The position numbers and the translations under genes are program-made. The notes below the pieces were generated by a model, which saw only the letters and a program-made list of their open reading frames with translations, was not told the origin of the DNA and ran no database searches. Below are positions 1 through 22,072 of a stretch of 44,214 bases of DNA, piece after piece; positions within the stretch are counted from its first letter, which is position 1; every line of letters starts with the position of its first letter. Source of the DNA: a bacterium (GTDB taxonomy: Bacteria; SZUA-79; Acidulodesulfobacterales; Acidulodesulfobacteraceae); contig JAJYJI010000011.1 in NCBI GenBank assembly GCA_021789605.1, positions 1-44,214 of the forward strand, read 5' to 3'.

Positions 1-288
1 TTGTTCCACTGAATATCCGCTTCTATCCTGCGGATAGCAAGGTTCATTTTACAAAGCCGCCATGTAGTCTGGTTACTCTCCTGCCCGTAAATGGAAATAT
101 CGCCTATTCTGCCGCCGTGTTCCTGAATAAATTTTTCGGACTGGACGAACATTCCGCCGGAACCGCAGCATGGGTCATAAACTCTGCCTTTATACGGCTC
201 TATCATTTCTGTAAGGAGTTTAACTATGCATCTTGGAGTATAAAACTGCCCGGCGTATTTTAACGCAAATATCGACAAGAACGGTTCA
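1..288 (-). pseudogene. hsdM: 5'-truncated type I restriction-modification methyltransferase (HsdM) fragment
   Basis: The minus strand reads [13 protein letters not shown], then [10 protein letters not shown] (the S-adenosylmethionine-binding motif I of type I N6-adenine methyltransferases), and finally KMNLAIR near the window edge. These are hallmark stretches of the HsdM catalytic domain. The gene continues beyond base 1. On its 5' side homology stops at about 270-288, where the frame runs into the 3' end of the DUF3108 gene and meets a stop near base 300. The N-terminal helical domain of roughly 150-200 residues is therefore missing, and no credible start codon exists in frame. I read it as a decayed R-M remnant. 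A chimeric assembly join is the alternative. Confidence 0.75.
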
Positions 289-1224
289 TATTTTTTTCTT
301 AGTTAATATTGCCGTCATAAAGCCGATACGGATATTTGTAACAAGATACACGGGGGTGTGGTTCGGCCCAGTAGAAAAGTATATCTTCAAACTTCCCTTG
401 TGTGAAAAAACTCCGTTAAAGTTAAGAAACGCCTTTACTTTTATAGTATTAAATTTCCCGGCCGGCGTGTCTATGTTGTAAAAACCTTCAGCTTTTATAA
501 GAACTAAGTATCTTTTGCGATTTTCATATACTGGTATATAATAGTCTTCGCCTTTATTCAGGTTAATAAGTCTAATGAAATACAAAGCGCTTAAAGCATC
601 CTGCGTATCGTTAAAAGAAAGGAAAGGTTTCCATGGTGCATTAATCCTATCTTTATAAAGCGCCGGTTTATTGTATTTTTCGTCTGAACTTAACATTTTC
701 AGAAACTTTTCTTTTTTTAAACTTTTCCATGCAGTTTTGTATTGGTCGGCTTTAATCAAATGCCTATAAGAACCGTTTAATCTTTCTTCCATAAAATCAT
801 TATGCGAGCCTTCATGTCTTTTCATTATTAAAAAATAGGGGTAGCATCTTTTAGGCGAGAAAAAACTTTCTGTAATATCATGTACATGATAAATAAAATT
901 AAACCATTTCGCATTATATGCCTGGGCCGTAAAAACCATAATTTTTTTATTTTTGTAATAGCCTGGCTTTGCCGACAATACAGCTTTGCCGGCATCTATA
1001 GTATTCAGGTAGGTAACTTTATAGATAAGGGTCTCTTTATTATAAAAAGAATAAGATTTATCTTTTATAGATAATATGCGCCTTCGTTCTTTATCGGCTT
1101 TTTTAAGAAGCGCCATAGCCTTATGATTTATTTTATAGTTCTCTTTAGAAAAAGCCTGATGAACATATGCGGCTATTTGAAATATTATAATGCAACAATA
1201 AAAAAATATTATTCGTCTTATCAT
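286..1224 (-). CDS. DUF3108 domain-containing exported protein
   Basis: The 312-aa protein starts with a hydrophobic signal peptide (residues about 1-26, ending near AFS). The C-terminal half has the DUF3108 pattern, with [11 protein letters not shown] followed by a strand-rich stretch containing [20 protein letters not shown]3108 proteins are periplasmic or outer-membrane-associated beta proteins of unknown function in Gram-negative bacteria, related in fold to lipoprotein carriers. The stop codon lies exactly where the truncated hsdM sequence begins, so the last few residues (TKKKI) may derive from the junction. About 100 bp separates it from the winged-helix remnant upstream. No operon partner is evident. 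The family call is fairly safe; the role is unknown. Confidence 0.7.
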
Positions 1225-1327
1225 AAAAGAGTTGTTTATAAGACCTTATAAAGTAAAGCAAATATAATTTATTCTTATTTGCGGTTATGCCTTTTATGCA
1301 TATATATAGCATCTATTTATTTGCGGT

Positions 1328-1459
1328 TCAAGAATTAATTATATTTTTTATTTTTAACCTATCCAAGTATTCCTTGACGGTTTCCAAACCTATTCCAAGG
1401 TTTTTGGCCAATTCGCTTATCGATATTTTTGGATTTAAACTGAATTGTTTAAGCGTATC
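1328..1459 (-). pseudogene. Winged-helix DNA-binding domain remnant
   Basis: The minus-strand frame ending at 1328 encodes about 43 residues with NPKISISELAKNLGIG followed by LETVKEYLDRLKIKNII. This is a helix-turn-helix plus wing of the kind found at the C-terminus of AlbA_2/RecG-like ATP-binding regulators and many transcription factors. The frame runs into the intact 3' end of the molybdoenzyme gene at 1449, and the only upstream ATG (1528) lies inside that gene without a ribosome-binding site. I therefore see it as the tail of a gene whose front was lost. It could instead be a genuine 66-aa overlapping gene, but that is less likely. Confidence 0.4.
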
Positions 1460-1997
1460 TTTCTTCTTTAAGCGGGTCTGCTCCGTTGGAATAGCCTCTT
1501 TGCTCCCAGTACCCAAGCTCTTCTTCATCTAAAAAGGTAACCGTTTTTACCCATTTTGCGCTTTTATATGCATATTTATCGGGAATAACGAGGCGCACGG
1601 GAAAACCGTGCTCCGGCGTTAAAATTTTTCCGGCATATTTTAACGCAAATATCGAGTTGTCCTTGAGAAGGAAATCGGCATCCACGTTTGTAGTATAACC
1701 GTCGTACGAACCTATTAAAACATATTTTGCGCCTTTAAGCGGTTTAACTAAGGCGGCAAGTTTTTTAGACAAAACGCCCTCCCATTCCGCCGATTCTTTA
1801 GTCCAGCCGGTAACGCAGTGGAAGTCGTCTGTTACTTTATCGTTACCGATTTTTACGATATCTTCGTAAGTGAAAACCGCCGGATTTTCGACTAATCCTT
1901 GCACCGTAAGCCTGTAATCGGCAATGCTTACGTCCGGAATATATCCTAAATCAAGCCTGAGCAGGTCTTCTACTTTTTTTTGGTTTGGCGGAATCAT
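1449..1997 (-). CDS. Sulfite-oxidase-family molybdopterin oxidoreductase, cytoplasmic (YuiH-like)
   Basis: The 182-aa protein has the compact sulfite-oxidase fold. FHCVTGW (Cys61) supplies the cysteine that ligates molybdenum. HGFPVRLVIP and AKWVKTVTFLD are the usual molybdopterin-pocket segments, and the C-terminus GYWEQRGYSNGADP is typical of the family. There is no Tat signal, unlike MsrP/YedY, so the enzyme should stay in the cytoplasm, as proposed for B. subtilis YuiH-like proteins. The substrate is unknown. Its start overlaps the stop of the isochorismatase-like gene by 4 bp (ATGA), which indicates translational coupling as the last gene of a four-gene operon. Confidence 0.85.
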   Translation of the reverse strand: MIPPNQKKVEDLLRLDLGYIPDVSIADYRLTVQGLVENPAVFTYEDIVKIGNDKVTDDFHCVTGWTKESAEWEGVLSKKLAALVKPLKGAKYVLIGSYDGYTTNVDADFLLKDNSIFALKYAGKILTPEHGFPVRLVIPDKYAYKSAKWVKTVTFLDEEELGYWEQRGYSNGADPLKEERYA

Positions 1998-2632
1998 ATG
2001 ATTTTATTAAGAATATTTTCCACAATAACTTTAGAATTTTCGCATATAAACATTTTTCTCATATTTTCTAAAGACCTGCCGTGCGCGTCCTTATCCATAG
2101 AAGATACGCAGTTTTCTACAATTACGGGATAAAATCCGCGGTTTGCGGCATCCCTTGCGGAAGATTCGACTCCTATTTCCGTCGCTATTCCGGTAAAAAT
2201 AAGAGTATTTATGTTCCTGTTTTTCATCATCTGCTCAAAATAAGTTCCGATAAATATGCTCGCCGCAGGCTTCTCTAGCAGTATATCGCCCCCTTGCGGC
2301 GCTATATCTTCGAGAATATTTCTGTCGCTTGAACCCTTCGCCATAAAATCGGGAAGTTTTGCGGGATCGTCAACGCCGAAACGCCTCATCATAGCGTAAT
2401 ACGACCACGAAGACCTGAACTCTTTTGCCGCCGGGGTTATAAGGGTATATACGACTGGAATTTTACCCCTTAAGGCATTTATTAAATATTTTATATCGGA
2501 AACAAATTCCGTTTTATTATATATTCTGGAAACCAACCCGTTTTGAACGTCCCACACGACAAGACACGAGCGCTCCGGATCCAGTATCTCCTTTAAATTT
2601 TCGTAGATTTCTATGCCGTATGCTTTTTTCAT
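1994..2632 (-). CDS. Isochorismatase-like (cysteine hydrolase superfamily) protein lacking the Cys nucleophile
   Basis: I place the start at 2632 because a clear AGGAGG precedes that ATG. A longer in-frame start at 2668 lies inside the upstream gene. The 212-aa product has the family's Asp (VVWDVQNG, Asp28) and Lys (LLEKPAASIF, Lys121). The position normally held by the catalytic Cys in the motif CVESTARDA is Gly (TEIGVESSARDA, Gly154). Gly at this site is known in true isochorismatases of the EntB/PhzD type, whereas nicotinamidases and amidases need Cys. The substrate is therefore unclear and thiol catalysis unlikely. It is the third gene of the LRV-SDR-hydrolase-molybdoenzyme operon. Confidence 0.85.
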   Translation of the reverse strand: MKKAYGIEIYENLKEILDPERSCLVVWDVQNGLVSRIYNKTEFVSDIKYLINALRGKIPVVYTLITPAAKEFRSSWSYYAMMRRFGVDDPAKLPDFMAKGSSDRNILEDIAPQGGDILLEKPAASIFIGTYFEQMMKNRNINTLIFTGIATEIGVESSARDAANRGFYPVIVENCVSSMDKDAHGRSLENMRKMFICENSKVIVENILNKII

Positions 2633-2654
2633 ATTACCTCCTAAATAATTTATA

Positions 2655-3485
2655 TCATACCATTTCATAACCGCTTCTATTTATCAATTCTTCGCTCAGC
2701 CGCCATAACTTCGTCCTCGCATCTTTATTATAGGCTATATCGTGCGGTTTCGCTATTTTTGAATCGCTGAAATATTTTCCGGTTATGTTTTCTACGTCTT
2801 TAGAAACGGCTAAATAAACCGAGGTCTTAGCCCCTTCCTGCGGACTTCTGCCGAAAAAACCTCCGACTGCGCCCCAGCCCGCTTTTAAAAGTTTCGTGTT
2901 TATGACTCCAGGATGCAGGCAGTTTACGGTGATATTTTTATCCTTTATCCTTTCGCTTAACTCGAAGGTAAAAAGAATATTGCATAATTTAGAAAGGCCG
3001 TAGGCTTTGTGGCCGTCGTATTTTACCGGTTTTACGAGATTGTCGAAATCCATTTTCGAAGCGTGCGCGGTCGAACTTACGTTTATTATGCGGGCCGGTT
3101 CTCCTGCCGGTTTAATAATTGGAAGAAGATTTAACGTTAGATAAAACATCGAAAGATGGTTTATCTGAAACGTAGCTTCTATTCCTTCCGGAGACAGCAT
3201 GTAATCCTTCAAATAAACGCCGGCGTTGTTTATTAAAATATCTAAACTGCCATATCTTTTTTTTACCACTTCGGAAAAACGATAAACTTCTTTTAGGGAC
3301 AATAAATCGCAGACAAAATAATCCAAATTTTTAACGCCCGTTAAAGAAGAAATTTCCCTTACGGTTTGTTTGCATCCGTCTTCATTCCTGCCGTGAATCA
3401 GGACGGAAAAGCCTTTCTGCGCAAGAATAACGGCGGTCTGTTTTCCTATCCCGTCGGTAGAACCCGTAATAAGAACGGTTTTCAT
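2655..3485 (-). CDS. Short-chain dehydrogenase/reductase (retinol-dehydrogenase-like SDR)
   Basis: The 276-aa classical SDR has the NAD(P)-binding glycine motif TGSTDGIG (residues 7-14), with an HGRN segment favouring NADP. It also has NNAG (86-89), the catalytic Ser in INVSSTAHASK and the YGLSK dyad (Tyr162, Lys166). The closest subfamily by motif layout is the retinol dehydrogenase/WW-domain oxidoreductase-like group (PGVINTKLL, then an SPQEGAKTSVYLA-type C-terminal segment). It acts in the cytoplasm on an unknown alcohol or carbonyl. Its ATG overlaps the LRV gene's stop by 4 bp, and 22 bp separates it from the isochorismatase-like gene, so the three are co-transcribed. Confidence 0.92.
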   Translation of the reverse strand: MKTVLITGSTDGIGKQTAVILAQKGFSVLIHGRNEDGCKQTVREISSLTGVKNLDYFVCDLLSLKEVYRFSEVVKKRYGSLDILINNAGVYLKDYMLSPEGIEATFQINHLSMFYLTLNLLPIIKPAGEPARIINVSSTAHASKMDFDNLVKPVKYDGHKAYGLSKLCNILFTFELSERIKDKNITVNCLHPGVINTKLLKAGWGAVGGFFGRSPQEGAKTSVYLAVSKDVENITGKYFSDSKIAKPHDIAYNKDARTKLWRLSEELINRSGYEMV

Positions 3486-4000
3486 AATTTTACCGTCCTT
3501 TCCGCAACTATATTCCTGACGCTTTCGCTTTCGTCGTCTTTCATTAAATGCAGATATTCTTCGGGGATTCTTCTGGACACGGCTTTTCTTACTAATGCTT
3601 CGCCGTCTTTTATCATATCTTTTAAATATTTCGGCTCTATTCTTTCGGCGACTTTAATCCTGACGATAGGTTCTTTATCGCTTATTAACGAGGGCAGTAA
3701 AGATTCGTCAATTCTTTCGGCTACCGCATGCCTTACCCAGAAAGATTTATCGTTCTTCATTTTTGGAAGCTCTTTAGCGTCTATTCTTTTTGCGACTATT
3801 AAGCGGACTTCTTTGTACGGGTCGTTTATAAGGGACGTTAAATTTTCGGAGGATATTCTTGAAGCTACTTTATATCTTACGTTTTCGTCTTTATCGGTTA
3901 AAGCATGGACAAGATAAACGGGCTCTGCCATGCTCACGGCATTAAAGCGCTCTTTGAAATCGCCGTTTTTTAGAATATTTATAAATTCGTCTTCGGTCAT
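3482..4000 (-). CDS. Leucine-rich repeat variant (LRV) protein
   Basis: The 172-aa protein consists of about six degenerate repeats of roughly 22-24 residues with the pattern D-x-x-x-x-VR-x-x-VA-x-RI followed by a short Leu-rich segment (YKVASRI, LIVAKRI, HAVAERI, IKVAERI, KAVSRRI, NIVAERT). This matches the LRV family, related to HEAT repeats and first described from Azotobacter vinelandii. That protein carries an N-terminal 4Fe-4S cluster, but this one has no cysteine at all, so it should be a plain scaffold. It is the first gene of an operon with the SDR. Its first 12 codons and upstream region lie in the 90-bp direct repeat. There is no Shine-Dalgarno sequence before the ATG. Confidence 0.75.
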   Translation of the reverse strand: MTEDEFINILKNGDFKERFNAVSMAEPVYLVHALTDKDENVRYKVASRISSENLTSLINDPYKEVRLIVAKRIDAKELPKMKNDKSFWVRHAVAERIDESLLPSLISDKEPIVRIKVAERIEPKYLKDMIKDGEALVRKAVSRRIPEEYLHLMKDDESESVRNIVAERTVKL

Positions 4001-4052
4001 TTTATTTATAAATTCAAGAAATTTATAAATTTTAGTTATTATATTTAATTAT
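3963..4052. repeat. 90-bp direct repeat, left copy (intact)
   Basis: The sequence is 89/90 identical to 13287-13376 in the same orientation, with the sole difference at 3998. This copy spans the first 12 codons of the LRV gene (minus strand) and 52 bp of its upstream region. It contains a perfect 10-bp inverted repeat (4005-4014 and 4020-4029, 5-bp spacer) that could be an operator or protein-binding site. Together with the right copy it brackets about 9.2 kb carrying the DUF488, SNF2, YhaN and YhaO genes. Confidence 0.95.
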
Positions 4053-4139
4053 ACCTTAAAATTTTAAACTTCTGCTGTATATTCTTAATATTTTTTATTA
4101 TATAATTTATTCATATATAATATACCGGAGGTAAAAATT

Positions 4140-4526
4140 ATGCTGAATATAAAAAGAATTTACGACGAACCGTCGGATAAAGACGGCATAAGAATATTAG
4201 TGGACAGGTTATGGCCGAGAGGCATAAGTAAAGAAAAGGCGAAAATAGATTTCTGGTTTAAAGACATAGCCCCTTCTAACGAATTGAGGAAGTCGTTTCA
4301 TGAGGCGGCAATAGATTTTATAGAATTTAAAGCAAAATATTTGCGTGAACTTTCGGAATACGGCCGCAGGCATAATTCCTCCGCCGAGCCGGATTCGGAT
4401 AATTCGATTGCGGAAATATCAAGATTATTAAAAACCGGAGGTAAAAATATTACCTTATTATACGGGCTTAAAGACGAAATAAACAACAACGCAGCAGTTC
4501 TGAAAGAATTTATATTGAAGAAATAG
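4140..4526 (+). CDS. DUF488 family protein (YeaO-like)
   Basis: The 128-aa protein starts MLNIKRIYDEPSDKDGIRIL and continues DRLWPRGISKEKAKIDFW, which is the defining signature of the YeaO/DUF488 family. Family members are small cytoplasmic proteins of unknown function. The ATG is preceded by a strong CCGGAGG ribosome-binding site and AT-rich TATAAT-like boxes at about 4100-4120. It diverges from the LRV gene and is the only plus-strand gene inside the 90-bp repeat-bounded block. The length is close to the family norm of 115-125 aa, with a slightly longer middle region rich in Ser and Asp. Confidence 0.88.
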   Translation: MLNIKRIYDEPSDKDGIRILVDRLWPRGISKEKAKIDFWFKDIAPSNELRKSFHEAAIDFIEFKAKYLRELSEYGRRHNSSAEPDSDNSIAEISRLLKTGGKNITLLYGLKDEINNNAAVLKEFILKK

Positions 4527-4671
4527 AGTATTAATTATTTTACATCGTAAACCGATTCCGTTTTGAACATCTGCTATTCCGAATCGGGCTCAAAAATATC
4601 TTTAAGGAAAATGCTCGGGCATAAGATGTTTATAAACAGTTCTGCGGCATTAGAAGTATCTGCGGTTAAAT

Positions 4672-7600
4672 TTAGATATTTTTATTTAAAGAAAAAATCT
4701 CTTTTAATTTTTTATCGGACATTTCGGTCAGCATTTGCTCGCCTGCAGAAACCGTTAGATTTGCAAGAGTCTTTTTAGACGTTATCATTTCGTCTATTTT
4801 TTCTTCAAACGTCCCGAGCGTTATCAGTCTGTAAACCGATACGTCTTTCTTTTGCCCGATTCGGTAAGCCCTGTCGGTCGCCTGGTCTTCTACGGCAGGA
4901 TTCCACCATAAATCATAATGTATAACGTTAGCAGCGGAGGTTAGGTTGAGTCCTGTTCCGCCTGCTTTTAAAGATAATATCATTATAGATTTCAGAGATT
5001 CTGGATTTTGAAACTCTTCAACCATTTCATCCCTTTTTTTCCTTGGAACGCCGCCGTGAAAAAATATAGGCTCCAACTTAAATTCTTTTTCTATTATTTT
5101 TACCAGAATATCGCCCATTTCTTTATACTGGGTAAAAATTAAAGCCTTCTCGCCGGAATCTAAAATTTTATCGATCAGTTCTATCATTTTTAACGACTTA
5201 CCTGACAGCTCTTTTGCCGCTTCACCCTTTTTAATATAATTTACCGGATGGTTGCATATCTGTTTTAAAGAGCCGATAAGTTTTAACACTAATCCTTTTC
5301 TGTCTATTCCTTTGCTCGTTTCTATTTCGGCCATTATATAGCCTAAAGTTTTCATATATAAAGCCGCCTGTTCTTTCGTAAGGTTGCAGTATTCGTTATT
5401 AACGTTCTTTTTCGGCAAGTCGTTTATTATCGATTTATCGGTTTTAAGCCTCCTTAAAAGAAACGGCGAAGTTGATTTTTTTAAATTTTCTATTTTATTC
5501 CTATCCATATATTTTTCTATAGGAATTGAATATTGCTTTTGGAATTCATTTAAATTTAAAAGATATCCTTTATTTATAAAATCAAATATGCTCCAGAGTT
5601 CGGTAAGCCTGTTTTCTACGGGAGTTCCCGACATTGCAATTCTGCAATCCGATTTTATTGATTTCACGGCTCTTGTTTGGTCAGTCAAAGGATTTTTTAT
5701 ATTCTGAGCTTCATCTACTATTACGAGCCCCCATTCTAATTCTTTTAAGTAATCTATATCGCTTCTTACGGTTCCATAAGTAGTTATTATAAGGTCTTTA
5801 TCTTTAAAAATATGGTCGTATATATCGGAATTTTTTAATTTTGATTTAACTCTGGTTTTAGATTTGGATTTTGGCATAATCGCACGATTTAAACCGTGAT
5901 GAATAAGAACGTCTAATGAGGGGGCAAATTTTTCGCATTCTTTTTGCCAGTTCCCAAGCAATGTCGTCGGACAGACTACAAGTCCAGGCTTATTGAGTTT
6001 CTTTTCTTCTTTAAGTTTTAAGAGTAATGCGATAACCTGAAGGGTTTTCCCTAAACCCATATCGTCGGCTATGCATGAACCCAAACCTTTTACGGTATTC
6101 GAATAGAGCCATATAAAACCCCTTTCCTGATAAGGCCTTAATTTTGCTTTTAATTTTGAAGGTAATTTTACTTTTTCGGGTTTTAATATGTTTTCTAAAA
6201 TAGACTTTAATGTTTCATCGTAATCGAAACCGTATCCGCCTATTTCTTCGGCGAAAGCTCCTTTAAGTATTTCCTTGGAATCAAAAGAACGCACGGGGGC
6301 TTTCAATCTTTCCATTAAATTTTTTACTTCATCAGGGTTTATAAATAAATAACGGTTTCTAAATCTTATAAGTCCGCCTGCCGATTTTAAGAGTTCCGAA
6401 AGCTCTTTTTTAGATATTTCTTCGCCTCCGATAGCTATTTTCCACGAAAAATCAAACATTGCATTTAAAGATAAAAAAGAAGTAAGGTTGACTTTAGATT
6501 TAGACTTTGCCTGAAGTTTTAATTGCGGCCTGTTTAAATTTACGAAATCTTTAGGCAAAACAAACTTTATACCCAAAATTTCAAAAATTTTAGACGAAGT
6601 AAGGAGAAAATTGGACATTTTCTGCAAATCGAGCGAAATTTCTTCCTTGCCCTTTTTATCCACTATTTTTCTTAATTCCGGCATATATTCCGACGCTACG
6701 CTTATCTGTTTTAATATGTCTAATTTTAATGCGGAATAATAGCCGGCATCTTTTTTCTTATGTTCAAAAAGTTTTTCAAGAGGAAATATCGGCTCCATCG
6801 TATTTTTTTTATCTTCTATTAAAACATTTAAAGAAAAAGTATCTTTTTTGCGCAAATCCATAACGATAACGGGAGAAACTTTCTTGTTCCTCACGGAAAA
6901 TCTTTCAAGCCAGTTTGCTATAGACCTTCCGGTATGTTGTTCGTCGAATTTGTCCGGAATATAAACATAATCTTTAAAGAAAGATTTTAAGACCTTATTA
7001 TCGCTTCTTTTATTTCTAGTATCAGCGAAGGTTTCTTCGGAAACCTCAGAATATTTTTTAAAAATATTGGTTATTATTAACGACAAAATATTAATAACTT
7101 CCTCGTCTGAAAGCGCTTTAATTTCAGAGTCCGAACAACTATCTATAAAGAAGTTATACGGCATAATATTTTTTAAATATTCTACGGCTTTTTCGGTTTT
7201 AATATCATGAACTACCGGTTCGTAAATTAAGTAAAATTTTTCGTTTTCGCCGTTTTCAGCGTCTTCGGTTTTAATTTTTGGGATGAAAGAAAAAGATTTT
7301 ATAAAAGATAAAGAAATTGAAACGAGATAACTAATAAATTTAACGCTAAGCGAAGTTTGTTTCGTTACAACGGGAATCTTGACGAAAAAATCTATTACGG
7401 TATCAATATTTAAGAGACTTCCTTTGATTTTTTTTATCTCAACGCTATTATTATCGTTTTGTAAAAAAGGTATTTCGAAATTCGACGTTTTTGGTTTGCT
7501 TTCTAAATCTAATAAATCATAGTTTTTTAATATCGGAGTTACGAAAAAATTAAAGAAATTTTCCTTATTTTTTATTAAATAAAAGTCTGAATTTAAAATT

Positions 7601-8400
7601 TCACTGTTTATATTTTCGTTTAATTCTAAATTATTTATATTTTTTGCAACGTTTTCATAAGCATTATACAGTATATTTTTAAAATTTCCCCCCGAATAAA
7701 ACAGCGTATTGTCGCATAGAATGGTAAAAATAGATTTTAAGGCAAACGGATTAAAAGAAATATCTGGAAAATCTTCCGTTTTGTTATTTTTTGTCCTGTA
7801 TTTCGCAACGCTTTCCTCTTTAATTTCAGCCGAAAAATCTTTGTCCGTTTTTTCAGGGATTGAAACATTTACATTTATGCCTGCCGATTCTATTAAAAAT
7901 TGCGTTGAAACACCTTTTAGATTAAAAACGATGAATGGATTCTTATCGATTTCTCTCGCAACTATATAATAAACAGCCGCAAGATGTTTGCAGGGATTCG
8001 CCCAATCGGGGCAGGAACAGCTTGATCTTATATCTTTCCAGTTTTCGGGAAAAAGTTTTATGCCTTTATTGGCCAAAAGCGGTAATATGTCCTCGGAAAG
8101 TTTACCGATAAGCAAATCAGAAGTAATTGAATAGTTTTCGTTAATAATTTCCGAAATGGCTTTTATTTCATTTTCTTTAAAGGGTTCAAGGGATATGACT
8201 ACCGTGTAAGGTTTGGGTTTGGAGCCTTTAACCTTGGCCAGTATTCCCTCGCCTTTTAATTCAACGGATACCACGCTCCCGTTATTTGCGTATCTTTTGC
8301 CTCTCGGCAGCCTGTTTGTGAAACTGTCTATTTTCTCTAAAGATTTTATCCACTCGTTTCCCCACCATGTGTTTCCAAATTTTGTTTTATTCCCGCCCAT
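4672..8400 (-). CDS. SWI2/SNF2 helicase with N-terminal SWIM zinc finger (fusion)
   Basis: The 1242-aa protein joins two modules often encoded separately in bacteria. The N-terminus has a SWIM zinc finger (Cys128, Cys130, Cys137, His139 in CSCPDWANPCKHL) preceded by a WWGNEWI segment typical of SWIM proteins. A long bacterial SNF2-associated region follows. The SNF2 ATPase comes next, with IADDMGLGKT (Walker A, about residue 780) and VIVDEAQN (motif II, about 896). The helicase C lobe has LKAGGTGLNLTSA and the arginine motif ATDRAYRIGQ. Such enzymes translocate on double-stranded DNA to remodel or strip proteins. It lies downstream of, and on the same strand as, the YhaN/YhaO pair with a 51-bp gap, which suggests a shared DNA-end or repair function. 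No ribosome-binding site is obvious. Confidence 0.93.
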   Translation of the reverse strand: MGGNKTKFGNTWWGNEWIKSLEKIDSFTNRLPRGKRYANNGSVVSVELKGEGILAKVKGSKPKPYTVVISLEPFKENEIKAISEIINENYSITSDLLIGKLSEDILPLLANKGIKLFPENWKDIRSSCSCPDWANPCKHLAAVYYIVAREIDKNPFIVFNLKGVSTQFLIESAGINVNVSIPEKTDKDFSAEIKEESVAKYRTKNNKTEDFPDISFNPFALKSIFTILCDNTLFYSGGNFKNILYNAYENVAKNINNLELNENINSEILNSDFYLIKNKENFFNFFVTPILKNYDLLDLESKPKTSNFEIPFLQNDNNSVEIKKIKGSLLNIDTVIDFFVKIPVVTKQTSLSVKFISYLVSISLSFIKSFSFIPKIKTEDAENGENEKFYLIYEPVVHDIKTEKAVEYLKNIMPYNFFIDSCSDSEIKALSDEEVINILSLIITNIFKKYSEVSEETFADTRNKRSDNKVLKSFFKDYVYIPDKFDEQHTGRSIANWLERFSVRNKKVSPVIVMDLRKKDTFSLNVLIEDKKNTMEPIFPLEKLFEHKKKDAGYYSALKLDILKQISVASEYMPELRKIVDKKGKEEISLDLQKMSNFLLTSSKIFEILGIKFVLPKDFVNLNRPQLKLQAKSKSKVNLTSFLSLNAMFDFSWKIAIGGEEISKKELSELLKSAGGLIRFRNRYLFINPDEVKNLMERLKAPVRSFDSKEILKGAFAEEIGGYGFDYDETLKSILENILKPEKVKLPSKLKAKLRPYQERGFIWLYSNTVKGLGSCIADDMGLGKTLQVIALLLKLKEEKKLNKPGLVVCPTTLLGNWQKECEKFAPSLDVLIHHGLNRAIMPKSKSKTRVKSKLKNSDIYDHIFKDKDLIITTYGTVRSDIDYLKELEWGLVIVDEAQNIKNPLTDQTRAVKSIKSDCRIAMSGTPVENRLTELWSIFDFINKGYLLNLNEFQKQYSIPIEKYMDRNKIENLKKSTSPFLLRRLKTDKSIINDLPKKNVNNEYCNLTKEQAALYMKTLGYIMAEIETSKGIDRKGLVLKLIGSLKQICNHPVNYIKKGEAAKELSGKSLKMIELIDKILDSGEKALIFTQYKEMGDILVKIIEKEFKLEPIFFHGGVPRKKRDEMVEEFQNPESLKSIMILSLKAGGTGLNLTSAANVIHYDLWWNPAVEDQATDRAYRIGQKKDVSVYRLITLGTFEEKIDEMITSKKTLANLTVSAGEQMLTEMSDKKLKEIFSLNKNI

Positions 8401-8451
8401 TTTTTTGCTTTTTAAAATTTTTAGTTATTTTTTTATTATATATGTCCCTAT

Positions 8452-11400
8452 CTATAAAATATGAACTTTTATCGTTTCCCAAGGGGTAATGTCAGAAATC
8501 AAATCAATAATATGTTTATGATGAGTAAAATATATAACCTGATTTTTTTTTGAAATTTCTTCAAAAATTTTTAAACAGGATTTAGCTCTTTCGTTATCAA
8601 AATTCACCAGAACGTCGTCTATTATAAGAGGCATAGGTTCGTTAGATTCTATATATCTTTTTACGCTTGCAAGACGAAGGGAAAGATATAATTGATCGCA
8701 TGTCCCTTCGCTCATTCCGTCAACCCCAACCTCTTCTTCGGCACCTTCAAAATTCGTCCTTGTGCCGACGAGAATATTCTCGTCTTTTAAGCCGAAAGAA
8801 GCTTTTAGTCCGGAAAACGAACCTATGGTAAGCATTGAAAATATTCGACTAGCGTTTTTTAAAACAGGTCCCTGGTTTTGCGCGCGGTAACGTTCTATTT
8901 CTTTCTTTAATATATCGCCTGCAAGCCTCAATTTTATGTACCTATCGGAATAATATTCTATTTGCGATGCAATCGATGACGCTTTTTCCTCTTTATCCGC
9001 TGCATTAGAATTACCGTTGCAATCTTTTAAAAAATGTTTTTCCTCTCCAATCAATTGTTCATATCGTGAAATTTCATTTTTTAATTTCTCTATTTCTGTT
9101 TTTATGTTTGAAATCTCTCGGGGAAGCGCATACGGGTCTATCTCGGACGATTCGGCTATAAATTTTTCTATATCGGTGCCGCTGGAATATCCATGCAACT
9201 GCTTATCTAATTGTTCTAAATCATTTTTTAAAGTTGCGGCTTCTTCGGATTTTCTTTCGACTTCGTATATCTGTTCCATATTATCGCAACCGGCTTCTTT
9301 TATAAGAGATTCCATGCGCATTTGCAAACTCTGTATTTTGCCTTTTTTTTCATTCATTTCTTCATTATAATTCGCAATATCTGTCTTGCACTTTTCAAAG
9401 GTAACCTGCTCCTTGTCGATTTTGTTAAGCTCGGAACGCAAAAGCAAAACTATCGTTCGCGTCGATTTTTTTGTTATTTCAGGCATTATTTTTTCAGCTG
9501 AATTCAAAACTTCGCTTTCAAAATCCGCCATATTATTTTTAACGGAATCAATTCGGGCTTTTAACGCTTTAGCATCATTCATCTTCAAAGTTAAAGTTTG
9601 ATTTTTTTCGAGAAACTCTTCGGCATCCGAGGGAACTGTTTCCTTATCTAATTCTATACTTAGCATTTCTTTTTTCCATTTCTCTTCCCAGTCATTCATT
9701 TCTGAAATATTTTGTTCATTTTCTGCCGCTAATTCAGCTAGTTGTTCATCGGCATCTTTAACGGATTGGGATAATTGAGCCTTTTTTGTTTTTAAGCTAT
9801 CCTGTTGTTCAATTATTTTCAAACTAATATCTATAATTTCTGAAAGCGAAATGCTTTTATCTAAATTTAGGTCTTTGCAGCCTGAAGAATTCAAACATTC
9901 TAATAGTAAAAGCCGATTTTCGCTCAAATTTTTTTTCATATGCTCTATTTCTTCTTTTATGTATCTTGTTTTTTCGGCGTCTTTGGCTAATTTTTCCTGT
10001 TTTTGAAGCCAAGAACGCATTTCACGCGGAACCAAAGGAACTATTTTTAAGCCGCCCCATAAATCGTCCCATTCTTTAGTTAACCGTTCTTTTTGTTCCA
10101 TTAACTTATCTTTTTGCATTTCAAGAAATTTTATATCTTCATTTATTTTGGATAAGGCGGATAGCAAAATCGTCTTCTTGGAAACCTTGTCAGAATTGCC
10201 CCAGAGACTGTCGGCTATTTGATCGACATGTTCGATGAATTTTTCATAAGCGGGAATAAGCGGAAACTCGTCGTCATATTTTTCCGCTTCGCTTTCAGGA
10301 ATATTTCTTTCTATATATATCTGTTTTATTAATCTCCAACCTTTGTTCCTCTTTAACCTTCCATCTTTTAGATCTTTTTCGGTTGGAATTACGCCTAAAA
10401 CATCAAGTCCTGAAATTTGTAATTCAATTTTTTCTTTATTATCATAACCGTCTTTGATTTTAGATGCAATTCTATCAATTTCCGTATTTATATCTTCAAA
10501 TTCACCGTCGTATCTGTCTACGGTTTCCATTAACGGCACGGGCAACTTTTCTATTTCTTCCATGGTCCATTTACATAACGGAAGTTTTAAAAGTTCAATT
10601 TTACATAAACTCTCTGCTTTTTGAAATTCATATATTTTTTTATCTAAATTTTTTTCGATATCGCCTTCTTTAAGGATGTTATCCAGAACTTTTTTTAATT
10701 TATCCGTATTTAAATATTCGCCGATTTCTTTTAGTTTATTTTGCGAAAATAACCTTTTACTTGCTATCTTATTTATTTTTTCAGCTATTCCCGAACTTTT
10801 TTCCTCGAGCTTGCCGTATTTGCTTGCTAAAGATAAAATGTTTTTTCTTTTTTGTAAACTTATAACTAATTTTGAAGTTTCATCGATTGAAACGCCTGGT
10901 CTTATTTCAGATAACAGATGTTCGGCTTCTATGATAAAACTTTCATGCCGCCCCGAAAGAACCGGCAGATCCTCTGCTTCCTTGTTATAACTGCCAAGCC
11001 TGACGTTAATATCCTCTATTAAAGCCCTATTTTGTATAAATTGTTCCGGTATAACTATTTTTTTTATGTTTTCTTCAATATTTGCGATTTTATCGTTTAT
11101 TTTTGATTCTTCCGCAATTAAAGATTCTAAATCCTTTACGGTGTTTAATCTTTCCTCTTTAAAATCTTTTCTAAGAATTAAAACGTTTCCTAAAAGTTCT
11201 TTTTTCTGCATCAGGGCTTTTCTTTCGGTAATAATAGGCAACGCCCCGCTAATGCGCTCTAACTTGTTAAGTTTCGCGCTTAAATAATCAATCGTTTTAT
11301 TTATTTCTATTTTTTTCGTTTCTGCGCTCTTAAGGGCGTCTTCATGCTCTTGCCAGATTTTAGGCTGAAGCGAAATCTTATTAATTTCTTTTTTTAAATC

Positions 11401-11970
11401 TTCATAATCCGAAATATACTTATTAATTAAAGATTTTGAGCTTCTTTGCTTGAAAAGATTTTGGGACTCTAAATCTATTTCGTCTAATATTTTTCTTAAT
11501 CCGCTTATCCCTGCTCCTGTCGCAAAAAGACTTTGCCCTGTGTCGCCTTTGCCCAAAACTATTTCTTTGCCGCCGTTTACTAAATCATCCCGACCAAATC
11601 CAAACATATTTACAAAAGAAGCTTCGTCGATTCCGGAAATAAATTTTAGAAGAGCTTCGCGATTTAATTCGATTCCGTCTTCCGAAAGAAGCGTTCTGGC
11701 GCGACCTTTTCGTCTCTGAAAAATAAGGGTTTCGCCGGAGGAATTTTCTATTTTTGCCGATATCCTTAATTTATTTCCGTCAAATTTAAAAGCGTCGATT
11801 GTTCTTTCGGGAATTCCAAAAAAAAGGGATTTAATGGCTCTTAAGGTGGTCGTTTTTCCAGATTCGTTATATCCGTAAACGATATGGAAGCCTTCTTTGC
11901 CATCTCCAAAGTCGATTGTTTTATCTTTAAAAGAACCATAAGGATTTAACCGCATCCAGATTATTTTCAT
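8452..11970 (-). CDS. yhaN: YhaN-like AAA ATPase (Rad50/SbcC-type SMC protein)
   Basis: The 1172-aa protein has a split ABC ATPase. Walker A is GYNESGKTT at residues 33-41. A very long heptad-rich coiled coil runs from about 180 to about 1000. The ABC signature region (GMSEGTCDQLYLSLRLA) is near 1090 and Walker B (PLIIDDVLVNFD) near 1116, with the HHKH switch segment after it. The N-terminal MFGFGRDDLVNGG stretch is typical of YhaN rather than SbcC. I see no CxxC zinc hook in the coiled coil, unlike canonical Rad50. It pairs with the overlapping YhaO-like nuclease (4-bp overlap), forming a presumed MR-type complex acting on DNA ends. Confidence 0.92.
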   Translation of the reverse strand: MKIIWMRLNPYGSFKDKTIDFGDGKEGFHIVYGYNESGKTTTLRAIKSLFFGIPERTIDAFKFDGNKLRISAKIENSSGETLIFQRRKGRARTLLSEDGIELNREALLKFISGIDEASFVNMFGFGRDDLVNGGKEIVLGKGDTGQSLFATGAGISGLRKILDEIDLESQNLFKQRSSKSLINKYISDYEDLKKEINKISLQPKIWQEHEDALKSAETKKIEINKTIDYLSAKLNKLERISGALPIITERKALMQKKELLGNVLILRKDFKEERLNTVKDLESLIAEESKINDKIANIEENIKKIVIPEQFIQNRALIEDINVRLGSYNKEAEDLPVLSGRHESFIIEAEHLLSEIRPGVSIDETSKLVISLQKRKNILSLASKYGKLEEKSSGIAEKINKIASKRLFSQNKLKEIGEYLNTDKLKKVLDNILKEGDIEKNLDKKIYEFQKAESLCKIELLKLPLCKWTMEEIEKLPVPLMETVDRYDGEFEDINTEIDRIASKIKDGYDNKEKIELQISGLDVLGVIPTEKDLKDGRLKRNKGWRLIKQIYIERNIPESEAEKYDDEFPLIPAYEKFIEHVDQIADSLWGNSDKVSKKTILLSALSKINEDIKFLEMQKDKLMEQKERLTKEWDDLWGGLKIVPLVPREMRSWLQKQEKLAKDAEKTRYIKEEIEHMKKNLSENRLLLLECLNSSGCKDLNLDKSISLSEIIDISLKIIEQQDSLKTKKAQLSQSVKDADEQLAELAAENEQNISEMNDWEEKWKKEMLSIELDKETVPSDAEEFLEKNQTLTLKMNDAKALKARIDSVKNNMADFESEVLNSAEKIMPEITKKSTRTIVLLLRSELNKIDKEQVTFEKCKTDIANYNEEMNEKKGKIQSLQMRMESLIKEAGCDNMEQIYEVERKSEEAATLKNDLEQLDKQLHGYSSGTDIEKFIAESSEIDPYALPREISNIKTEIEKLKNEISRYEQLIGEEKHFLKDCNGNSNAADKEEKASSIASQIEYYSDRYIKLRLAGDILKKEIERYRAQNQGPVLKNASRIFSMLTIGSFSGLKASFGLKDENILVGTRTNFEGAEEEVGVDGMSEGTCDQLYLSLRLASVKRYIESNEPMPLIIDDVLVNFDNERAKSCLKIFEEISKKNQVIYFTHHKHIIDLISDITPWETIKVHIL

Positions 11971-13229
11971 TGTTCTGCCGCCGACGATAATAAGCGAGAC
12001 AACAAAATTTGCCGAACTTCGTCGATAATTTCAGAAGTTTTTTCGCCGTTAGTTAAATTGTTTTGGTCTTTTAATTCGTAAGGGAGTTTTTCTTTTAAAT
12101 CCGATAGGATATTCGTCAGTATATCTTGTATTTCTTGATTTCCTTCGCCGGATAGAGTATCTATATAGCGCATCAAATCCCCCATGGGGTCGTTTCTTTT
12201 TTTCATCCGTTCTATATTCGCCTCGGCGGATGTTTTTATAAGTATCTTTTCAAGCCATACCAAACTATTGCACGAGTCAGCGACGGCAAGGCGTATTTCG
12301 TTTTTCCATTTTTCCGTATTGGATATAAGGGCATTATGGGCGCCGCAGGCACCTTTTATCAATGCCCTTACGGCCGTAAATAAACCGTCGTTTTTTAAAA
12401 ATTCTTCTTTGGCTTTTTTGCTTACCTTCTCGACAACTTCGTATGGGTCATTAACTCCGGTTACGTCCGTTTCGCAAAAAGACCACGCAAGAGAACATAA
12501 ATTTTTAAATTCCGACGAAACATTATAATCATCATATACGCTAACTATCATGCATCCCTTGAATCCAGTCTCTTTAATATGCCTTCCTTGGATATTTCCA
12601 GGAAAAACTATCCATGGATTTTCATTTAAAATCTCTCTTTTATGAATATGTCCTAGCGCCCAATAGTTATAATCCTTCCTTTTAAGGTCATCTATAGAAC
12701 AGGGGGCGTAATTTTCGTGTCCTTCCCTGCCGTTAACGGAGGTATGCAGAACGCCTATATTGAACATGTCCTTCTGGGCGGGAGGATAATTGGAAGCTAG
12801 ATTTTCTTTAACGGCGGAGGCGGCAAAACTTTGACCATGAATTGCAATATTAATGTTTTCTAAAAAAAATGTTTCTGGGCGTTTTGAAGAAAATATTTTA
12901 ATTCCTTCCGGCAATTTCAAATTTTTAGTTATCTTGCTTTCGGCATCATGATTGCCTTTTGCTATAAAAACATTAATGCCATTCGAGGTTAATTTTGAAA
13001 GTTGGCTGAGTAAAAATAAACCGGTATTATAATCTTTCCAATCTCCGTCATACATATCTCCCGATATTATTACAAAAGATACATTTTCTTCTAATGCTAA
13101 ATCTATTAGATTTTCTAAGGCTTTTCTTGCCGCACCGCGAATTTCTTCGGCTGGAGCGTCTTCATAATTTTCAAGTCCACGTAATGGACTGTCCAGATGA
13201 ATATCTGCCGCATGTATAAATTTTATCAT
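11967..13229 (-). CDS. yhaO: YhaO/SbcD-like DNA exonuclease (metallophosphoesterase)
   Basis: The 420-aa protein is an Mre11-type calcineurin-like phosphoesterase. FIHAADIHLDSPL gives motif I (Asp9, His11), ISGDMYDGDW motif II, KGNHDAES motif III, and LGHIHKRE plus FPGNIQGRHIKE the downstream metal-binding motifs. With the YhaN-like ATPase it should form a Mre11-Rad50-type nuclease complex that processes DNA ends. The C-terminal helical region (about 300-420) would contact the ATPase coiled coil. It is the promoter-proximal gene of the YhaO-YhaN-SNF2 set. A TATAAT box lies 6 bp before the ATG and there is no ribosome-binding site, so translation is probably leaderless. Confidence 0.92.
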   Translation of the reverse strand: MIKFIHAADIHLDSPLRGLENYEDAPAEEIRGAARKALENLIDLALEENVSFVIISGDMYDGDWKDYNTGLFLLSQLSKLTSNGINVFIAKGNHDAESKITKNLKLPEGIKIFSSKRPETFFLENINIAIHGQSFAASAVKENLASNYPPAQKDMFNIGVLHTSVNGREGHENYAPCSIDDLKRKDYNYWALGHIHKREILNENPWIVFPGNIQGRHIKETGFKGCMIVSVYDDYNVSSEFKNLCSLAWSFCETDVTGVNDPYEVVEKVSKKAKEEFLKNDGLFTAVRALIKGACGAHNALISNTEKWKNEIRLAVADSCNSLVWLEKILIKTSAEANIERMKKRNDPMGDLMRYIDTLSGEGNQEIQDILTNILSDLKEKLPYELKDQNNLTNGEKTSEIIDEVRQILLSRLLSSAAEQ

Positions 13230-13264
13230 TTTAATATTATACTGTTATTATTTATTGGCTCCAA
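13230..13264 (-). promoter_or_regulatory. Promoter of the yhaO-yhaN-SNF2 operon, predicted leaderless
   Basis: On the minus strand, TTGGAG (13264-13259) and TATAAT (13241-13236) are separated by 17 bp. Only 6 bp lies between the -10 box and the ATG, so the expected transcription start coincides with the start codon. The promoter sits just inside the right copy of the 90-bp repeat. Confidence 0.6.
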
Positions 13265-13286
13265 AATATCTGACAAAAAACTGCCT

Positions 13287-13376
13287 CCGTTTTTTAGAAT
13301 ATTTATAAATTCGTCTTCGGTTATTTTATTTATAAATTCAAGAAATTTATAAATTTTAGTTATTATATTTAATTAT
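13287..13376. repeat. 90-bp direct repeat, right copy (orphan LRV gene start)
   Basis: The sequence matches 3963-4052 at 89 of 90 bases in the same orientation. The single change (13322) turns the LRV start codon ATG into ATA on the minus strand, and after 12 codons the sequence diverges completely, so no LRV gene is present. Farther right (about 13399-13455) there is weaker resemblance to the DUF488 upstream region and first five codons (MLNLK against MLNIK), which then stops at the 3' end of the next gene. The 217-bp gap 13230-13446 otherwise holds only the yhaO promoter. Confidence 0.95.
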
Positions 13377-13446
13377 GCATAGAAATATTGCATATGGGAT
13401 ATAATTTAATCATAAGAAAATAAGGGGGTAAAATATTATGCTCAAT

Positions 13447-14790
13447 TTAAAAGGGGGTTTCGAGTATATAAACCTGGTTATTTTTATATTTAAACAGATA
13501 CAGGTTCTTTTTAAAAGTATTTACGCTTAATCTGCTTTCCCCGCACACCCCTTTAAAACGTCTGACTCTTAAAAGAGCGCGGTAAAATATTAATCCTTCG
13601 GCGCCTCCGGCGAATAGCCGTTTTTGGGGTTGTTCCTTGCGCTTTTGCGGAAATACATAGATATAAGGGCTTTTAACGGAGACGGCGTCAATATCCTTGT
13701 TATAGGAAAGGTTAATCCTTTCCGCCGCCTTGATTACTATCCCACCTATATCGTATCCTTCCGCGCTAAGTATATTGGGCATTTCTCCGTAATTTTTTTT
13801 ATATGCCGCCGCAAACGCTTTAACGGCTCTGTTGTCGTCATGTTTAAAAAACCCATCGGTAAAAATTGCGTTTCGCATATAAAACCCATATTTTTCGATA
13901 AAAGATTCCGAATCGAAGGGGCTTAATCCAAAAATTGGAAATCCTGTAATGTTATAATACATAAGCTGGGTTAAAATTAATCCGAGTTTCGAAGGGCCGC
14001 CTATTACGAAAAGGCCGCCGAAAGGTATTATCGGCTTTAATTTCGTAATGCCGTGCATCATATTGTACTTGGTAACGCCTAGCTCCGCTTCCTTTTTTGA
14101 TATATTATGTGCGGCGGCGGTGTTTTTAAACTTGACGATAGAATTGAAATTATAAAAAAAATCAACCGTTTTTTCGCTATATGCGGTAGTATCGGAAATA
14201 TTTATTCCGTACTTTTTTGAAAATTTAACGATATAATGCAGCAGTTTCAATCCGTAACCGTAGTCGGGATATATAACCGCAACCGAACTCAAATCAGCAT
14301 ATTTTGCATATTCGATTTCGGTCTTAATCTCCTGTTTTAACGTCATTCCGTAATTAAAGACGTAAGGCGAAAAATCTTTACCGGAAACGACCGGCGACGG
14401 AGTTATCACGGGAATTTTGAACATTGCGGAATTGTACGCAAAATATTTTAACTGCCCTTCAAAAATAGGGCCTATTACAGCGCTTACCCTTTTTTTCGCC
14501 AAAGAGGAAAACATTTTGCCGATGCTTTTATTGCCGGCGCTTATCGGCAGGTTTTTTATTATATAATTAATCTTTCGGCCGCCCGCCTGTTTACCGAGGC
14601 TTAAGAGCAGGCCGTTTATAAACTGTCTGCTAAAGAAAGAATAGCTTCCCTCGGTAGGAAGCGCTATAACAATTTTTATCGAGCCGGCCTTGCCGAAGCC
14701 GTTTTCGACGCCTGTTGTTTTGCCCCAAGACGGAAAAGGCGGGAGCAGGGCGGCAAGCAAAAATAATATTCCCGTAAAATAAATTTTCAT
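13447..14790 (-). CDS. Periplasmic ligand-binding protein (Peripl_BP_6 / LpoA-like)
   Basis: The 447-aa protein has a signal peptide (residues about 1-23, MKIYFTGILFLLAALLPPFP then SWG) and a type I periplasmic-binding fold. IKIVIALPTEGSYSFFSRQF opens the first lobe; SAVIGPIFEGQLKYFAYNSA and IPVITPSP follow; VAVIYPDYGYGLKLLHYIV opens the second. This fits the branched-chain amino-acid-binding/penicillin-binding-protein-activator superfamily. No ABC permease or ATPase gene is adjacent, so an LpoA-like regulatory or sensory role is as likely as transport. The lack of a Cys lipobox suggests it is soluble in the periplasm. A 264-bp gap separates it from the divergent dprA-like gene. Confidence 0.72.
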   Translation of the reverse strand: MKIYFTGILFLLAALLPPFPSWGKTTGVENGFGKAGSIKIVIALPTEGSYSFFSRQFINGLLLSLGKQAGGRKINYIIKNLPISAGNKSIGKMFSSLAKKRVSAVIGPIFEGQLKYFAYNSAMFKIPVITPSPVVSGKDFSPYVFNYGMTLKQEIKTEIEYAKYADLSSVAVIYPDYGYGLKLLHYIVKFSKKYGINISDTTAYSEKTVDFFYNFNSIVKFKNTAAAHNISKKEAELGVTKYNMMHGITKLKPIIPFGGLFVIGGPSKLGLILTQLMYYNITGFPIFGLSPFDSESFIEKYGFYMRNAIFTDGFFKHDDNRAVKAFAAAYKKNYGEMPNILSAEGYDIGGIVIKAAERINLSYNKDIDAVSVKSPYIYVFPQKRKEQPQKRLFAGGAEGLIFYRALLRVRRFKGVCGESRLSVNTFKKNLYLFKYKNNQVYILETPF

Positions 14791-20733: not shown

Positions 20734-20812
20734 TTTTCCTCCAGACCTGTAAAGTTATATGACGATTTTTATTTAATGCAATATTATATAATAAAAATAC
20801 ACAATAAAAAAA

Positions 20813-22015
20813 TTATTTATATTTTCCTTCTTTTATTAGCGCGGAGAGCATAAAAGACAAGAGCAATACAAGGCCGTACAATGCAAATATCCAGTGCAGG
20901 GCGAATCTCTGGGCGATAATTCCCCCTATGGGAGCGGCAACCGAACCTATGCCGAAACCAGCAAAGAAAAATATGCCGTATGCTGTTGCCCTGTATTTTT
21001 CATGCGCATTCTGGCTTATCATAAGATTTGAAATAGGGTTCAGGGAAAAGTTGAATGCAGAAAAAGCAAGAACCGAAATGAACAATAAAATTCCGCCGGC
21101 GACCCCGGATATTAAAAGAAATATTCCGCTCGCTAATATTAAAAAAGAAAACACCCTGTTAGCTTTGTAATTTTTCGTTATTTTCGTGCTGTTATACTGG
21201 AAAATTACTCCCACGATAAGCGCCGCGGTCACAAAAAAACCGCCGGCTGCTGCGGCTTGGTCATGAAAAAAAAGATAATTTTTCAATTCCGTGCCTACAT
21301 ATGCCGGCAAAAACGAAAATACGCCCTGAAAGACGAATCCGTTTAAAAATTCGGCAATAAAAATTATCATTAAATTTATATGAAAAAATTCTTTTAAAAA
21401 AGCGTTAACAGCGGTTTTTATTTTAACTTTTCCGCCGTCTTTTATTTCTTTTTTGCCTTTCATATCGGCGCCCAATTTAAAAAAATACGACAGTCCGAAA
21501 AGAAATAAAAATATAAAGCCGAGCATTAAATAAGGGAAATTATAGCCGAAAAAATAGCCCAGCATTCCCGCAAAGCCGGCGCTCAAAGCCACGCCGAGCG
21601 TTCCTGCAATGCCGTGAATAGCAAAAGCTCTCAGTTTGTCGCTTCCGATAAAAGACATCATGCTTAAACCGACCGGATGATAAATGCTTCCGGTTAGCCC
21701 GATAAGAATTATGGAGGCGGAAAAAATGTAAAAATTAACTGAAACCGCGGCGGCAAAAGAAAAAACGCCCATTCCCAGCAGGTATATTCTCAAAATATGT
21801 TTTTTATCGATTTTATCGGCTATAAAACCTATGGGCAGGGATCCTGCGCCGAACAAGAAAAGGTAAATTCCGGCAACCGTTCCCAGCGTTTCATAATTTA
21901 CGTTAAATTTTTCTTTAATGAGTATCAAAATAGCGGGATATGTCAGAATCGCGACATGGCAAAAAAAATGCGAAAGGCTTAAAAGCGCGATAGTTTCTTT
22001 TTCTTTTTTTTCCAT
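20813..22015 (-). CDS. MFS transporter
   Basis: The 400-aa protein has about 12 hydrophobic segments in two halves. The loop between helices 2 and 3 (LPIGFIADKIDKKHIL) carries the MFS motif A pattern. TGSIYHPVGLSM and the ALSAGFAGMLGY segment resemble the fosmidomycin-resistance/FSR-like group, in which HPVG is typical. It probably exports a small molecule across the inner membrane; the substrate is unknown. It is divergent from the CDF exporter, with a 94-bp shared upstream region. Confidence 0.88.
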   Translation of the reverse strand: MEKKEKETIALLSLSHFFCHVAILTYPAILILIKEKFNVNYETLGTVAGIYLFLFGAGSLPIGFIADKIDKKHILRIYLLGMGVFSFAAAVSVNFYIFSASIILIGLTGSIYHPVGLSMMSFIGSDKLRAFAIHGIAGTLGVALSAGFAGMLGYFFGYNFPYLMLGFIFLFLFGLSYFFKLGADMKGKKEIKDGGKVKIKTAVNAFLKEFFHINLMIIFIAEFLNGFVFQGVFSFLPAYVGTELKNYLFFHDQAAAAGGFFVTAALIVGVIFQYNSTKITKNYKANRVFSFLILASGIFLLISGVAGGILLFISVLAFSAFNFSLNPISNLMISQNAHEKYRATAYGIFFFAGFGIGSVAAPIGGIIAQRFALHWIFALYGLVLLLSFMLSALIKEGKYK

Positions 22016-22072
22016 TGTCGTAATATTTTACAAAATTTAACCTTTCTAAGCAATTAATTTGATTAATTTGAT

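Follow-up and report, generated by a model that had tools for sequence, protein, structure and literature searches.

The window analysed here is a 44,214-nt stretch (contig JAJYJI010000011.1 of assembly GCA_021789605.1) from a bacterium of the family Acidulodesulfobacteraceae, in which genes for a SWIM-SNF2 protein, a YhaN-like ATPase and a YhaO-like metallophosphatase lie within an interval flanked by a nearly perfect 90-bp direct repeat. The repeat and these three genes, hereafter the cargo, are best explained as a rearrangement scar between LRV neighbourhoods of related bacteria and not as an excisable mobile element, a reading to which we assign a probability of roughly 0.58. The original prediction had taken the arrangement for a 9.3-kb genomic island with a repeat at either end. 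The gain of the three genes in this lineage, with relatives that lack them, is upheld by our comparison. The repeats do not mark the two ends of an insert, as one of them is native. Comparisons were made within a set of 30 genomes of the phylum, the window's own genome included; G numbers denote genomes of this set, L numbers fetched loci and C numbers contigs. The own genome comprises 2.0 Mb in 87 contigs with 5.21% contamination and is therefore probably a metagenome bin.

The repeat itself was described accurately in position, orientation and identity. Copy A (3963–4052) and copy B (13287–13376), both read on the minus strand, share 89 of their 90 bases as well as their orientation and are spaced 9324 bp apart. 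The sole mismatch, at position 3998, is C in A and T in B and changes the start codon of the LRV gene on the minus strand from ATG to ATA in copy B. Counted from this mismatch, the longest exact run within the pair is 54 bases. The longest exact repeat of the whole window is 60 bases, in a TopA gene, whereas in 20 windows simulated from its 3-mer statistics the longest was 15–20 bases; since chance thus yields exact repeats of at most 20 bases, the pair lies beyond it. At E 0.001 the own genome holds these two copies only and no third. The palindromes AATTTATAAAT within the copy were considered as a possible operator; upstream of LRV they are not conserved in most relatives (alignment by eye), and the idea was dropped.

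From the start codon onward, copy A takes in approximately the first 13 codons of LRV (38 nt); its other 52 bp belong to the native intergenic region between LRV and DUF488. The LRV/HEAT repeat gene is intact (3482–4000, minus strand; PF01816) and has matches in 22 of the 30 genomes; its divergent neighbour DUF488 (4140–4526, plus strand) has matches in 25. Window positions 3940–4174 align without a break to locus L136 (G010:C56), from the LRV start through the intergenic region into DUF488, with 92.8% identity over 236 columns. The gene order of L136 is also that of the window (C-terminus of LpoA, DUF488, LRV, SDR, isochorismatase-like, the sulfite-oxidase-like gene SUOX, and W286, a 312-aa flank gene), and no cargo is present. 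The divergent LRV/DUF488 pair occurs 15 times in 14 fetched loci of relatives. This unbroken native alignment, together with the presence of DUF488 in 25 of 30 genomes as against the patchy SNF2 and YhaO genes, establishes by alignment that copy A is the native LRV start, that no insertion boundary lies there, and that DUF488 is not cargo. The 9.3-kb interval consequently cannot be treated as one unit: DUF488 is resident, and the cargo comprises only SNF2 (4672–8400), YhaN (8452–11970) and YhaO (11967–13229), placed between LpoA and DUF488. At L145 (8854–13782, G021), two LRV/DUF488 pairs stand in inverted orientation about 3 kb apart.

Copy B has a different character. It lies upstream of YhaO, and its homology runs on toward the LpoA side as a more diverged DUF488 start, so the 90 bp are only the near-identical part of a longer relic. 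This continuation (13392–13450, plus strand) contains a ribosome-binding-site-like GGGGGT, an ATG at 13438 and about four codons, and is joined to the stop of the LpoA-like gene (13447–14790, minus strand), the resident boundary across the cargo from DUF488. We keep the name LpoA from the original prediction; the Pfam basis here is PF13458, a periplasmic-binding-protein fold, with matches in 27 of 30 genomes. Outside the own genome, 13392–13450 matches G009 best (L121 6638–6586; 81% identity across 59 columns, E 4e-9 in a search of the fetched loci); the alignment scores 70, and 300 shuffles reached no more than 29. The match to the own copy A region is weaker (77% over 69 columns; score 56 against 31). 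The stretch from the LRV start to the LpoA tail (13287–13515) is collinear with G006, at 71% over 242 columns, and G006 likewise has no DUF488 between LpoA and LRV. In copy B both LRV and DUF488 are cut near their starts, and the LRV frame continues into an unrelated tail. The LRV side is closer to the own copy A (99%) than to any relative's LRV start found (at most 93%). Copy B is thus, as judged from these alignments, a relic of an older resident DUF488/LRV divergent region and more than a copied promoter. It is a mosaic, resembling G009 on the DUF488 side and all but matching copy A on the LRV side. Between copy B and YhaO, a possible 16-codon leader open reading frame (13226–13276, minus strand) was noted by eye, with a TTG start 7 nt behind GGAGG (13284–13288) and a stop overlapping the YhaO start. 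The 66 bp upstream of YhaO (13227–13292) gave only chance-level matches, none better than E 1e-3, elsewhere in the 30 genomes.

The 3' neighbour of LpoA was tallied at 20 fetched loci from 17 genomes in which it is readable; the LpoA loci of G016, G029, G025, G028, G023, G021, G027, G020 and G018, and that of G010:C65, a contig ending at LpoA, stand outside this tally. The neighbour is DUF488 in end-to-end orientation at five loci and in the other orientation at one, LRV at two and reversed LRV at one, YhaO at three, a 218-aa gene at four, and other genes at the remaining four. The 218-aa gene was scanned in G005, where it is a Nitroreductase; the other three were judged by length and look. 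No SNF2 gene was found in the 20 fetched LpoA stretches. The five end-to-end loci (L120, L121, L136, L147 and L054, from four relatives) are cargo-free and read LpoA|DUF488. In G014, G005 and G001, YhaO follows LpoA directly, with no such repeat between them.

The cargo genes are patchy in the phylum. Full-length SNF2 was detected in 2 of 30 genomes, the window's own and G026, with weak matches only in G005 and G011. YhaO was detected in eight; two of these genes are partial and adjoin LpoA, and a third is truncated where its contig stops. The nearest cargo is that of G026, where SNF2 and YhaO-YhaN lie on separate short contigs. On contig C170 of this genome (L142 8009–8071), the last 21 SNF2 codons stand just upstream of a second, full-length YhaO-YhaN. 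Based on this C-terminal relic, SNF2 and YhaN-YhaO were evidently neighbours in G026 too, in the order SNF2-YhaO-YhaN, which is permuted relative to the window.

A step in sequence divergence coincides with the cargo site. Nucleotide identity between the window and L136 is 96.9% over 249–1320 and 94.9% over 1450–4519, and drops to 79% in the final 111 bp of LpoA; for L147 and L054 it is 95–97% in DUF488 and about 70% in LpoA. Identity of the block to L129, L126 and L123 is 87–93%. As a background, matches longer than 1 kb at 20800–26900 were 72–78% identical in 12 of 15 relatives, with shorter pieces at 84% (744 bp) and more. From this step between the block and LpoA or background, the LRV block is judged to have been exchanged recently with some lineages, its edge being the LpoA/DUF488 boundary where the cargo sits. 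Over its whole extent, window 1–4519 is 91–97% identical to L136, which points to a recent cross-species exchange whose far edge would lie beyond the contig start.

In the favoured scenario, incoming DNA carrying YhaO-YhaN-SNF2-DUF488-LRV would have recombined with the resident LRV locus beside LpoA. Homologous recombination would have joined the LRV/DUF488 side; on the other side the cargo would have been attached illegitimately, close to codon 13 of LRV. The resident DUF488 body would have been deleted and the resident LRV cut at about codon 13, leaving copy B as the remainder; a direct duplication of the LRV 5' end would result without any recombinase. The mosaic inside copy B would need a further crossover or gene conversion. 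The order of these events, the assignment of one homologous and one illegitimate end, and the later gene conversion are all what we infer from the present arrangement.

Such a course resembles homology-facilitated illegitimate recombination (HFIR), which has been reported from three naturally competent species and from E. coli conjugation, and is rare in the experiments reported there (PMC3240628). The likeness would lie in one homologous end, one non-homologous junction and a deletion in the product, as that report describes them (PMC3240628). At the presumed homologous end, the 94.9% block next to the cargo, against the background of 72–78%, would fit a homologous exchange in either direction. 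At the presumed non-homologous end, LRV is cut near codon 13, beside the leader stretch without relatives, and the rest of that LRV and its DUF488 are absent. The difference is that HFIR is here deduced from a natural scar that requires extra steps. A comparable pattern is the displacement of type VI secretion effector-immunity modules in Vibrio cholerae, in which one insertion after another next to a conserved anchor has left genes orphaned, and for which the authors propose an HFIR-like mechanism (PMC5361080). Those modules differ in genes and function; what the present zone retains are terminal pieces, 5' or 3', of LRV, DUF488, isochorismatase-like and SDR genes.

Several observations weigh against this scar scenario. 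Copy B combines an LRV side 99% identical to the own copy A with a G009-like DUF488 side, so at least two events or a later gene conversion are needed. A donor with truncated LRV-YhaO-YhaN-SNF2-DUF488-LRV was not found in the 30 phylum genomes. High block identity is confined to some lineages: L120, L121 and L138 (G010:C28, G009 and G006) reach just 80–84% over 1445–4519. L136 is a 5.2-kb contig from a bin 84% complete, and the contamination of the own bin adds to this concern. The comparison of composition inside and outside the block, suggested in the original prediction, gave mixed results: GC content at third codon positions (GC3) is lower in the cargo (0.30–0.34) than in DUF488 (0.41) and most flank genes (0.36–0.44), and it is weak evidence on its own, since the overall GC of YhaO (37.7%) is close to that of DUF488 (37.5%) and the flank gene W286 has a GC3 of 0.31. 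Finally, L122 (G003) and L138 (G006) lack DUF488 and read LpoA|LRV, the form that excision between the repeats had been predicted to leave, and recombination between the repeats with loss of the interval, or a circle that entered, would account for this arrangement as well.

The last of these points bears on three other explanations. If the repeats were attachment sites of a site-specific recombinase, as first proposed, the LpoA|LRV form of G003 and G006 would be the excised state, and the direct repeats and patchy cargo would be accounted for. Excision would, however, delete DUF488, which the five empty loci keep, so the predicted outcome is seen in G003 and G006 and not in these five. Neither genome has a YhaO or SNF2 match. 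G006 retains a short DUF488-start-like remnant whose deletion end differs from that of the window (by eye); a plain DUF488 deletion explains this form, with an old excision as a possible alternative. The statement that no integrase or transposase is present was borne out among 26 window proteins scanned with Pfam and four more with NCBIfam, smaller open reading frames and 36615–38036 being outside the scan, and no tRNA was found in the window. Integrase-driven islands with attachment repeats share the direct repeats and patchy cargo, and differ in that here neither a recombinase nor a tRNA was found and one repeat lies off any insertion boundary. Resident DUF488 also lies inside the interval, and YhaO follows LpoA without such a repeat in three genomes; the native junction at copy A largely contradicts an island, which we regard as the least probable of the explanations.

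Had a circle with DUF488-SNF2-YhaN-YhaO and an LRV 5' end entered an LpoA|LRV chromosome by one crossover, the repeats would be products of homologous integration without an integrase, and DUF488 would have returned together with the cargo. G003 and G006 show the recipient form that this predicts, and a crossover within copy B would fit its mosaic make-up. The same relative, though, is about 93–95% identical to the window in DUF488, in the intergenic region and in the LRV-to-SUOX block, from which one history and no junction at copy A would be expected, and no replication or circle-borne gene was seen in the interval; we consider this course distinctly unlikely. Slightly less probable again is an assembly artefact, in which two molecules sharing the 90 bp, for example a free DUF488-SNF2-YhaN-YhaO circle and an LpoA|LRV chromosome, were joined. 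Short-read assemblers can mis-join at shared stretches of about this length (90 bp), the assembly is divided into 87 contigs with 5.21% contamination, and LpoA|LRV exists in G003 and G006. Against an artefact, the two copies can be told apart by one base and by the flanks on either side, the DUF488-A-LRV order is conserved, and YhaO follows LpoA in three other genomes.

The TopA gene carries another repeat in this window. Its zinc-finger repeats (18063–18151 and 18222–18310, 89 bp each) are 99% identical to each other in the window; within-locus identity is 81–99% in 17 loci, and the copies in 16 relatives' loci are 79–91% identical to the window's first copy. This pattern looks like concerted evolution and suggests that short-tract homogenisation occurs in this lineage.

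Gene conversion or a short segmental duplication within the own genome is a further explanation of the 90-bp repeat, possible though on the unlikely side. The cargo would have been beside LpoA earlier, and the LRV 5' end would later have been copied from A onto the B relic or duplicated there, copy B perhaps being retained as promoter and leader of the YhaO operon. The near-identity of B to the own copy A, when no relative's LRV start found exceeds 93%, speaks for this, and homogenisation of the kind seen in TopA fits it. So do the GGAGG and coupled leader ahead of YhaO (by eye) and the LRV-start relics of G014 and G015, which also lie upstream of a same-strand gene. The relic of G016, by contrast, faces a convergent gene, and promoter-like sites are at shuffle level near both copies: four near B (shuffle mean 3.2, sd 1.8) and three near A (mean 3.8, sd 2.2). 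Near A the best site is TTAAAA-18-TATAAT; its first hexamer falls beyond the repeat, and none of the sites listed at B corresponds to it. On these site counts, copy B is at most a candidate promoter of the YhaO operon.

The names given to the genes in the original prediction proved right: DUF488, SWIM/SNF2, AAA_27 as YhaN-like and metallophosphatase as YhaO-like. All three cargo genes lie on the minus strand. The predicted YhaO-like protein (11967–13229; PF00149) is of Mre11/SbcD type, with motifs DxH at residue 9, GD at 57, GNHD at 92 and GHxH at 193, and matches Mre11 chains in PDB (best E 3e-12). The YhaN-like ATPase (8452–11970; PF13514, E 3e-61), which overlaps YhaO by 4 bp, has a P-loop and a DD motif. 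The helicase-like SWIM-SNF2 (DUF3670) protein (4672–8400; PF00176, PF12419, PF04434) contains both SNF2 and SWIM motifs. The names YhaO and YhaN are those of a Bacillus pair. The pair found here resembles SbcCD/Mre11-Rad50-type pairs in placing a metallophosphatase beside a P-loop ATPase, each subunit having its catalytic motifs (PF00149, PF13514), and differs in that no curated SbcC/SbcD or Rad50/Mre11 model reaches its cut-off (sbcd 44 bits against 77.65; Rad50 26.6 against 700).

Assignment to a known anti-phage defence system was considered and rejected. PADLOC models scanned against six proteins gave shared-domain matches only and no specific component: the SNF2 protein matches just the SNF2 core of ZorD, DpdE and others, YhaN weakly matches LmuB (E 8e-13), and YhaO matches an "Effector" endonuclease model (E 3e-7). 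Outside the phylum, 14 SNF2 loci were sampled by two peptide patterns, 11 of them from Bacteroidota by record title; YhaO and YhaN are absent from their fetched stretches, some of which are short. A YhaO profile run on the genomes of ten of these loci found none (0/10). By itself such an empty result is no evidence, but the profile does find 8 of the 30 phylum genomes; only close relatives went into building it. SNF2, YhaN and YhaO are best called a co-located DNA-processing set, on domain evidence, and not a proven system. Among the matches listed for YhaN/YhaO/SbcCD and DUF488/leucine rich repeat variant in the literature, the locus appears in no title, which does not prove its absence.

Beside the cargo, the neighbourhood holds many gene fragments. 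Truncated LRV starts were found in three relatives: those of G014 (L123 15110–15197) and G015 (L129 3031–3068) sit upstream of SUOX, and that of G016 (L140 12742–12774) beside a convergent amino-acid permease gene. A search for more used an 18-base pattern, which hit 39 places in the 30 genomes; eleven loci were inspected, G005:C126 not among them, and these showed other genes or short open reading frames, except for the known LRV start of L201. Weak matches in G014:C20, G028:C18 and G020:C82 gave no LRV start on alignment, and that in G007:C11 is not LRV by eye. The relic count is therefore three plus copy B; the pattern requires an ATG, so copy B is invisible to it and other relics without ATG could be missed. 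C-terminal (3') ends of LRV persist in G002, G022 and G023 (E 6e-7 to 1e-4). Isochorismatase-like fragments occur in G014 and G002, SDR fragments in G026 and DUF488 fragments in L132 and L149. A tentative 36-bp isochorismatase-like relic (4529–4564, minus strand) lies at the cargo/DUF488 junction of the window itself, matching the own gene at 2480–2515 in 31 of 36 positions with a score of 47 against a maximum of 30 in 1000 shuffles. YhaN is internally deleted in G014, and G005 and G001 carry fused YhaO-YhaN fragments. These decayed genes behind LpoA (L124 13307–14953 and L146 2093–3406, respectively) share the same YhaO break at residue 164. Judging from such fragments, the LRV, DUF488, SDR, isochorismatase-like and SUOX genes are repeatedly reshuffled here.

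RhuM-Fic family genes are present in the same neighbourhood in G026 (L141 5993–6952) and G002 (L127 8169–9215). Farther along the window, 32647–44152 contains gyrB, dnaN, yidC, mnmE and mnmG, and a 473-aa open reading frame (36615–38036) is a candidate dnaA; this is perhaps the replication-origin region.

These results make an excisable 9.3-kb element unlikely and indicate that a long direct repeat on both sides of a functional block, which looks like a perfect island signature, can arise from a mosaic scar; it is more useful to ask of each junction whether it is native than to rely on the repeat itself. They also mark a variable zone in a probably uncultured phylum, in which DNA-repair-like genes come and go. 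It is conceivable, though doubtful, that the LRV start (promoter and first 8–13 codons) is a recurrent landing point in the phylum, with cargo operons repeatedly joined behind it and then using the LRV promoter and ribosome-binding region. In that case LRV would serve as a naturally occurring expression trap at a rearrangement hotspot next to LpoA, and one DNA-processing module captured in this way would be YhaO-YhaN-SNF2.

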